Assembly: GCA_937951345.1 (NCBI GenBank)
Contig: CALFCF010000004.1
Coordinates: forward strand, 21,341-85,340
Source: an uncultured Granulosicoccaceae bacterium
Lineage (GTDB): Bacteria > Pseudomonadota > Gammaproteobacteria > Granulosicoccales > Granulosicoccaceae
DNA length: 64,000 bases
Reading direction: 5' to 3'
Part shown: positions 28,989 through 30,152 of the stretch, one piece after another
Layout of the letters: each line of letters starts with the position of its first letter
Numbering within the stretch: the first letter of the stretch is position 1
The notes under the pieces: model-generated
Told to the model about the DNA's origin: nothing
Database searches by the model: none
What the model saw: only the letters and a program-made list of their open reading frames with translations
Program-made: the position numbers and the translations under genes

Positions 28989-29531
28989 TTAAGCACCAGC
29001 GACTGGTGCGGCTGGCAACACCAAATCACTGTCGTTTATGTGGTTAAACGTATTGGTCAGGAAAATAGTCGACACCACCAGCACCAGATCCATCAGATTC
29101 TGATCACTCAAACCGGCCTGTCGTGCCTGTTCAAGCTGATCGGTATTCATCGGACCCTGTGCTCGGGCGAGATTTGACGTTAACTCCAACAACGCATCCA
29201 GTCGCACCTCACCTGTCATCTCTCCGCGTCGGACTGCCAACTGCTGAGACACATCAAGTCCTGCGGCTGTTGCTTTGGCGGTATGAACAGACAGACAGAA
29301 TTCGCAGCGGTTAATCTCACTGACTAATAATTTGATTGCTTCGACTTCACGTTCGTCCAGACTACAGGATGCGACTGATTGCTCCATCGTGAGATAGCTA
29401 TCCAGCGCAAGCGAGCTGTTACCCATCTCCCGAAAAACCGGTGCGATTGCACGCTTACCGGTATGTGCCTGGAGTCGTTTCAACAGAGGCGCCGTCAACT
29501 CATCATCATTACACTGTTTGAGTCTGCCCAT
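28989..29531 (-). CDS. AhpD-like/carboxymuconolactone decarboxylase family protein
   Basis: LLVSEINRCEFCLSVHTAKATAAGL (ExxxCxxC...H pattern). Start moved from 29636 to 29531 (MGRLKQCNDDE). Confidence 0.8.
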   Translation of the reverse strand: MGRLKQCNDDELTAPLLKRLQAHTGKRAIAPVFREMGNSSLALDSYLTMEQSVASCSLDEREVEAIKLLVSEINRCEFCLSVHTAKATAAGLDVSQQLAVRRGEMTGEVRLDALLELTSNLARAQGPMNTDQLEQARQAGLSDQNLMDLVLVVSTIFLTNTFNHINDSDLVLPAAPVAGA

Positions 29532-29678
29532 AATATTTATCTGCCATTTGATGAATTCTGTTAGCTGCAGCGCAACAGGAAGAACAAAAACATTGTCGAA
29601 GCAAGGCACGACAAAGACGAGCCAATGATAAAACACGAATGAGAATCAATGCGAACAGGAATCAATTTGGCTAGCCTG

Positions 29679-29813
29679 CTCAAAATTGAGATTGCGCGCT
29701 CAGGCAAGGCGTGTGTCGCTCGAGCAGCGCAGAACGGCACACAACGCAGAATCAGCGTGCAGGACTCGGCGTCCCCGACTAGGCGTCCCCGATCAATTTT
29801 GAGATGGCTTCTA
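29679..29813 (-). mobile_element. MITE-like element, copy A
   Basis: Terminal CTCAAAATTGAG...TCAATTTTGAG; interior is the reverse complement of the element at 34017-34217; contains two GGGGACGCCNAGTC units. Confidence 0.8.
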
Positions 29814-29904
29814 GTGATACTGTCGCCCGCAGAAAAACCCGCAAAGACGCGTGCAGAAACTCTGAAAAGAAAAAAGTGTATGCATAAAGTACATGCATAA
29901 AAAA

Positions 29905-29923
29905 GGGCTGCGTTAAGCAGCCC
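29905..29923 (-). terminator. Rho-independent terminator of the small unit 29898-30060
   Basis: Minus strand: GGGCTGC-TTAAC-GCAGCCC followed by TTTTTT. Confidence 0.85.
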
Positions 29924-29930
29924 CCGTGTC

Positions 29931-29991
29931 TTGGCTGTTTGGTCAGCCAACATCGGGTGTGTCACACACCCCGACAGATTTACCTGTCAGG
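29931..29991 (-). ncRNA. Three consecutive hairpins downstream of the 16-aa ORF
   Basis: HP1 CCTGACAG-GTAAAT-CTGTCGGG (29970-29991); HP2 GGGTGTG-TGA-CACACCC (29955-29971); HP3 TTGGCTG-ACCAAA-CAGCCAA (29931-29950). Confidence 0.6.
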
Positions 29992-30042
29992 CTAAGCGTG
30001 CGCACCCAGGACTGACCAGCCCAGATTCAAAACACTAGACAT
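29992..30042 (-). CDS. Putative 16-aa small protein/leader peptide MSSVLNLGWSVLGAHA
   Basis: ATG preceded by AGGAGGTGATC (30045-30055), 11-nt complement to the 16S anti-SD tail, 7 nt from the AGGAGG core to ATG; TAG stop then hairpins and terminator. Confidence 0.55.
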   Translation of the reverse strand: MSSVLNLGWSVLGAHA

Positions 30043-30152
30043 TAGATCACCTCCTGAGTAAGTTGCCATTGGAAACCTAAGCGTAGCACTTTCAACACCA
30101 TTTTCCTATGTTCCCTGTGCTTTATTGCTCTATTTGGTGCGGTTTGCGTTGG

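Follow-up and report, generated by a model that had tools for sequence, protein, structure and literature searches.

A predicted stand-alone small RNA with an extended Shine-Dalgarno sequence and a micro-ORF in Granulosicoccaceae, apparently a divergent relative of CC2171

SgrS/SgrT, RNAIII/hld and Spot 42/SpfP are dual-function small RNAs (sRNAs), in which a short ORF on a small regulatory RNA encodes a functional peptide. In the leader-peptide attenuators (trp, his and ilv), a short ORF is combined with alternative hairpins and a terminator, and a regulated gene lies downstream. In the ribosome-entrapment mRNAs of the rpsO/S15 type, structure by the Shine-Dalgarno (SD) sequence and the start codon competes with accommodation on the 30S subunit. 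A short ORF with a functional peptide is likewise present on a small regulatory RNA in S. meliloti rnTrpL/peTrpL, and the peTrpL RNA derives from an attenuator (PMC10117765). Since about one-third of the newly found translated small ORFs of Sinorhizobium lie on annotated sRNAs (PMC10117765), translation of such RNAs is plausible. CC2171 (RF01867) is a Caulobacter sRNA, to which Rfam gives the type 'Gene; sRNA'. In our literature search, it was named only in Rfam 15 (PMC11701678) and in a Mesorhizobium screen, where MH_s33 is an annotated sRNA relative (PMC5596092), and no functional paper on CC2171 was found.

We analyzed a 64,000-nucleotide stretch of DNA from an uncultured Granulosicoccaceae bacterium (the window; all positions refer to it unless stated otherwise). 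The features of the unit at 29898-30060 are collected in Table 1. As with the dual-function sRNAs, the unit carries a short ORF; however, its peptide looks unconstrained, whereas the SD sequence and the ORF length are kept. The layout of the attenuators is also seen, and the position of the ribosome would choose the fold, but no conserved operon lies downstream. There is no ribosomal protein gene at the unit, and the comparison with rpsO/S15-type entrapment is a lead only. With CC2171, the unit shares the extended SD sequence, the RTGTCT start, the place of the outer helix (P1) and the terminator abutting the P1 3' arm. In contrast, the P1 sequence, the rod extension and HP3 are different, and the SD-pairing copy of the 16S tail is absent.

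Table 1. Features of the 29898-30060 unit in the window.
Feature	Position	Strand	Remark
Extended -10 promoter element TGCTACGCT	30088..30080 (hexamer 30085-30080)	minus	Comparison across 30 gammaproteobacterial loci
Predicted transcript, ~175 nt	30073..29899	minus	Start inferred ~7 nt past the -10 element; end at the T run
Extended SD sequence AGGAGGTGATC	30055-30045	minus	11-nt match to the complement of the 16S 3' tail GAUCACCUCCU
ATG, after a TA spacer	30042-30040	minus	Spacer directly 3' of AGGAGGTGATC
Micro-ORF MSSVLNLGWSVLGAHA, 16 codons + TAG	30042..29992 (TAG 29994-29992)	minus	Frame-0 length conserved, peptide not
P1 5' arm GTGTTTTG	30035-30028	minus	Begins 4 nt past the ATG, in codon 3; swap test, consensus fold
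Rod extension 5' arm GGTCAG, within the ORF	30017-30012	minus	Pairs with 29946-29941; kept in the family
HP1 CCTGACAG / CTGTCGGG	29991-29984 / 29977-29970	minus	Letters present; fast-evolving middle
HP2 GGGTGTG / CACACCC	29971-29965 / 29961-29955	minus	Letters present; fast-evolving middle
HP3 TTGGCTG / CAGCCAA	29950-29944 / 29937-29931	minus	Conserved; competes with the rod extension
Rod extension 3' arm CTGACC	29946-29941	minus	Overlaps the HP3 5' arm
P1 3' arm CAAGACAC	29933-29926	minus	Directly before the terminator; consensus fold, swap test
Intrinsic terminator GGGGGCTGC-TTAACG-CAGCCC-TTTTTT	29925-29899	minus	Terminator listing; adjoins the P1 3' arm

The extended SD sequence, the 16-codon ORF, the hairpins and the terminator of the initial annotation are all present where it had placed them. 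Its distance of about 370 nt from the terminator to the next gene is also correct, the next plausible gene start downstream being the ATG at 29531. An intrinsic terminator was found in every full relative listed. The motif GGAGGTGATC occurs four times in the 4.49-Mb genome, and only at the 29898-30060 unit is it accompanied by the SD spacing, the ATG of a short ORF and a terminator. Since the 16S 3' end is not among the four GGAGGTGATC sites of the assembly, the SD complementarity rests on the universal 16S 3' tail sequence GAUCACCUCCU. One further GGAGGTGATC site in the genome reads GGAGGTGATCGGGTG. A second GGAGGTGATC in the same genome (L110; G000 contig C63, 4279-4288) precedes GGGTGCAATGTG and is possibly a further initiation site of unusual strength.

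A consensus promoter scan of the window detected no promoter at the unit, probably owing to the lack of a -35 element. The promoter was visible only by comparison across the gammaproteobacterial (gamma) loci, where the extended -10 element TGNTANNNT precedes GGAGG by 32-35 nt at every one of the 30 distinct loci, with about 0.045 per locus expected by chance. The neighbors are a methyltransferase and an AhpD-like gene in the genus of the window, a lipoprotein and a membrane protein in Granulosicoccus, and a convergent gene in Alteromonas. At the alphaproteobacterial (alpha) loci, the following gene shares the strand of the RNA in 23 cases and lies opposite to it in 22. Since the unit possesses its own conserved promoter and no conserved neighbor, it is predicted to be a stand-alone transcript and not a leader. 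The initial annotation had proposed both possibilities; the former agrees with the promoter and with the unrelated or convergent neighbors in other genera, and the latter finds no conserved downstream gene across genera. Between the RNA and the AhpD-like gene (29678-29803), CTCAAAATTGAT and ATCTCAATTTTGAG form an inverted repeat flanking about 100 nt, in which a short direct repeat (CGGGGACGCC) occurs twice. This segment is possibly a small mobile element.

The 160-nt block delimited in the initial annotation proved to be conserved in relatives. A DNA search gave matches in 16 of 57 relatives, and the exact pattern was found in 21 of 48 genomes of the family Granulosicoccaceae (reversed pattern, 0). 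With R1, a covariance model built from 19 relatives, one copy each was detected in 38 of the 48 genomes, ten of these matches being weak (E between 1e-4 and 1e-3). In a scan of one genome per species, exact blocks were found in MAGs of Granulosicoccaceae, in four Alteromonas, in one MAG each of Glaciecola and of a gamma (Ww423), and in two further MAGs, labelled Acidiferrobacterales and Alphaproteobacteria. The distribution in Gammaproteobacteria is patchy (10 of 369 by the pattern, and 3 of 229 by the model under strict filters). The ends of the unit are conserved (the SD sequence and ATGTCTAGTGTTTT; CAGCCAAGRCACGG and the terminator), and its middle, including HP1 and HP2, is not. GGAGGTGATC is invariant across the 19 aligned relatives. 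The alphas carry GAAAGGAGGTGATCCAG at the SD position, with a match of up to 17 nt to the 16S tail. One locus, L097, is probably an unrelated match of the pattern. The copy L096, from a MAG labelled Alphaproteobacteria, is very AT-rich and possesses the gamma-type start ATGTCTAGTGTTTTT and a 29-codon ORF. Shorter forms, in which the extended SD sequence, the ORF and the terminator are present and P1 is less clear, were seen at L103 and L104 (gamma family f191) and L105 (f148); their ORFs have 11 or 14 codons (MSNGCIEVLTG, MSNDSMCAASGATC).

The reading frame that follows the SD sequence is 15-22 codons long at 22 gamma loci (sd 2.0), where the other frames run for 1-31 codons. At 44 alpha loci, the corresponding frame has 14-35 codons, and 42 of these loci fall within 11-29; in 1000 sets simulated under a Markov null, on average 11 and at most 20 loci did so. 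These frame-0 lengths in gammas and alphas indicate that the tiny ORF of the initial annotation is genuinely selected. Whole-codon insertions near the start, with P1 kept, are seen in the family variants L157, L159 and L160. Between L006 and L008 there is a 1-nt frameshift, and a stop is still met nearby in the cluster CTAACTAAC. Among 22 close pairs, the changes at codon positions 1, 2 and 3 numbered 33, 36 and 38, and non-synonymous and synonymous codons 56 and 20; as the pairs share sequences and ancestry, these counts are indicative, and RNA constraints could mask selection on the peptide. No hydrophobic conserved peptide of the type I toxin or small membrane peptide kind was found (examples are MSSVFQRGDQLWVLR and MSSVLLLADQFRANKD). 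A tiny functional peptide, which the initial annotation had also considered, is disfavored by the lack of conservation at the amino-acid level. From these comparisons, it seems that about 15-25 codons of translation matter and that the product does not. A nearly fixed 14-residue peptide (MSLTKRCHLAGIAR-like) is found in a subset of alphas (L039, L041, L042 and L047), which may reflect either true peptide conservation or pairing of the RNA.

The folding energy of the unit was -75.5, whereas 200 dinucleotide shuffles averaged -52.1 (sd 4.2), which corresponds to a z of -5.6. The predicted minimum-energy structure is a long rod closed by GTGTTTTG x CAAGACAC (P1), with the SD sequence outside the rod and mostly unpaired. 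In many relatives, the P1 pairing begins at codon 2. The hairpin letters of the initial annotation are present, but this long closing pairing had been missed. HP1 and HP2 do share bases, as it had pointed out; however, a switch between them is missing already in the closest member of the same genus (G002), where the rod is retained and HP1 is lost. HP1 is the rod tip in the genome of the window only, and the HP2 3' arm pairs elsewhere in the rod. A mutually exclusive HP1/HP2 switch was dropped because the pair is not conserved among relatives.

Swapping the partners of the P1 arms never gave as good a fit as their own partners (0 of 5000 permutations for alphas, for gammas and for the pooled set, kinship ignored); the swap tests on P1 and on the SD pairing are uncorrected for the relatedness of loci. 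The first hairpin picker misplaced the terminator in L025, L041 and L073, which weakens, and does not help, the P1 swap test. In the gamma alignment alone, 23-46 of 500 pair shuffles reached the observed covariation score or percentage paired. This support is weak, in part because the P1 5' arm was a fixed element of the search pattern. Sliding the partner in the same alignment decreased the pairing from 93% to about 31-49%. The rod extension and HP3 draw on the same 3' bases, and each is kept in about 88% of cells. Since the CTGACC arm overlaps the HP3 5' arm, the rod and HP3 exclude each other. By this comparison, the conserved alternative folds are predicted to be the long-range rod (P1 and its extension) and HP3, not HP1 and HP2. 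The helix P1, which appears to covary and to span from codon 2-3 to the terminator, is described here for the first time.

In an Rfam scan of the window, no family reached its cut-off. The best weak match was CC2171 (20.8 bits against a cut-off of 75; E 0.013-0.044 by stretch), and a search of the window's own genome with RF01867 gave no match at E<=0.001. Thus, the statement of the initial annotation that the unit is not a known family holds by cut-off, although a distant relative does exist. The window aligns end to end with the RF01867 model (positions 1-159 of 159), and its relatives do likewise. The 5' block AGGAGGUGAUC with RUGUCU, a CC2171 feature, is present in the window; the P1 outer helix begins just after RUGUC and ends at the terminator in both; and the micro-ORF at the SD sequence (14-35 codons in alpha members) is shared. 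Bridging gamma relatives scored higher against RF01867: L099, 44 bits (E 5.6e-6); L106, 38.8; L098, 33.5; and L012, a member of the window's own family, 33.3. Among 4227 families over 59 kb, CC2171 at this element accounted for 9 of the 12 best matches. In the reverse direction, the gamma model R1 matched almost every alpha locus at the correct position (best E 2.4e-9; first off-target E 1.1), and it gave no match at L108-L110, three loci where GGAGGTGATC has different surroundings. These matches support a common ancestry for the alpha and gamma forms but fall short of proof, because the SD sequence supplies much of the score. From these alignments, the unit appears to be a divergent gamma branch of CC2171-like RNAs and not an Rfam member by cut-off. 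Members of the CC2171 type, classed by Rfam as an sRNA gene, possess a conserved ORF, which was recognized here. Weak matches to GcvB (19.6 against 42 bits), PrrB/RsmZ (10.9 against 44 bits) and other Rfam families were rejected as chance matches, which are absent in relatives.

In many alphas, a copy of the 16S tail (e.g. CCUGGAUCGUCACCUCC) lies inside the ORF, mostly about 25-60 nt past the start; it was seen among the CC2171-type loci L018-L047 and L112-L130. This mimic can pair with the SD sequence and start codon of its own RNA (mean z -1.7 over 44 loci; swap test of mimic against SD sequence, 0 of 5000, kinship ignored), and compensating changes were found in L118, L119 and L126. Thr-Trp (TW) recurs in the alpha peptides because the ORF encodes this SD-pairing copy: the RNA stretch CCUGGA pairs with UCCAG. 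The pairing, which we predict here for the first time, is pseudoknot-related to P1 and is absent from the structure line shown in Rfam's model. The internal mimic and the SD sequestration of the alpha type were not found in the window (z 0.06), and in the gammas as a group there is at most a trace of the pairing, with a weak swap test. Because the SD sequence and the mimic are complementary with compensating changes in alphas, control of ribosome docking is pointed to as the function.

The promoter, SD sequence, ORF, P1, HP3 and terminator and their conservation are read from the aligned sequences, and from them we infer docking, translation, unzipping, refolding and an output via stability or a partner. 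We tentatively propose, with a probability of roughly 0.4, that this stand-alone RNA, one of the wider CC2171 type, acts as a ribosome-gated switch whose fold is changed by the act of translation and not by the peptide. A free 30S subunit would dock on the 5' tail, where the SD sequence is complementary to essentially the whole 16S anti-SD tail, and the docked ribosome would translate the micro-ORF. The translating ribosome would peel the 5' half off the rod, and with the ribosome in place the 3' half would refold into HP3. Once the ribosome had left at the nearby stop codon, the rod could re-form. The state of the RNA would track ribosome availability, through its stability or through access of the 3' half to a partner, and the peptide would be a by-product. 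In the layout, the ORF fills the 5' half of the folded domain and HP3 is in the 3' half. The absence of alpha-type SD sequestration in the window argues against such a switch. Among the possibilities raised in the initial annotation, a ribosome-related function is the one that stands as the leading reading.

The near-maximal SD sequence and the helix after the start codon might instead trap 30S pre-initiation complexes, and an abundant RNA would then lower free 30S. An SD match of 11 nt in the window and up to 17 nt in alphas, a P1 that from codon 2-3 falls within the normal 30S footprint, and the mostly unpaired SD sequence in the window's predicted fold all agree with a decoy. A pure trap, however, needs no ORF, yet the ORF length is under strong selection, and self-masking of the alpha SD sequence is the opposite of a decoy; we regard it as unlikely. 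We also give little credence to a conventional base-pairing sRNA, whose unpaired or variable middle regulates mRNAs and whose translated ORF serves only for protection of the RNA or as a secondary activity. The stand-alone promoter, the strong poly-U terminator and the annotation of relatives as sRNAs (CC2171 in Rfam; MH_s33 in Mesorhizobium, PMC5596092) are in its favor, but conservation is lowest in the middle, where targets would have to pair, and highest in the stretch of the SD sequence and start codon.

That the unit serves to encode a very small functional peptide of 14-25 aa is improbable. The ORF is conserved, with in-frame insertions, and the N-terminal sequences MSSVL and MSHCHQP recur; however, the common N-terminus is the P1 arm at the RNA level with free variation beyond it, the codon positions are flat, non-synonymous changes prevail, the alpha TW is explained by the CCUGGA/UCCAG pairing, and no hydrophobic or charged pattern is held in common. 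A transcription attenuator, with leader peptide and terminator, of a downstream gene would account for the layout of the short ORF, alternative hairpins and terminator, and the AhpD-like gene does lie on the same strand about 370 nt downstream. Nevertheless, the downstream gene varies by genus and is convergent in Alteromonas, its strand is evenly divided in alphas, and the ORF contains no codon run for one amino acid. An attenuator of the AhpD-like gene was rejected on genomic context, and the reading as a whole, already largely refuted, has hardly any chance of being right.

If the ribosome-gated switch is true, the RNA would be a direct sensor of translation capacity, a quantity that cells are thought to monitor; we know of no dedicated free-30S sensor RNA. 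The RNA appears to combine maximal complementarity to the 16S tail with a reading frame under selection and a peptide free of constraint. That it represents an ancient proteobacterial class measuring free 30S, in which translation flips the fold and signals ribosome supply and the 5' tail is torn between the ribosome's 16S tail and, in alphas, its own copy within a micro-ORF of no set meaning, is a broader and rather doubtful proposal. By these comparisons, an obscure Rfam sRNA entry becomes a conserved RNA across Alpha- and Gammaproteobacteria. Of 399 genomes from the phylum, 86 gave RF01867 matches, as did 21 of 96 sampled over the alpha class, mostly below Rfam's cut-off. Six alpha genomes (G079, G172, G180, G346, G386 and G825) gave two matches each with the CC2171 model, and the RNA may be duplicated there.
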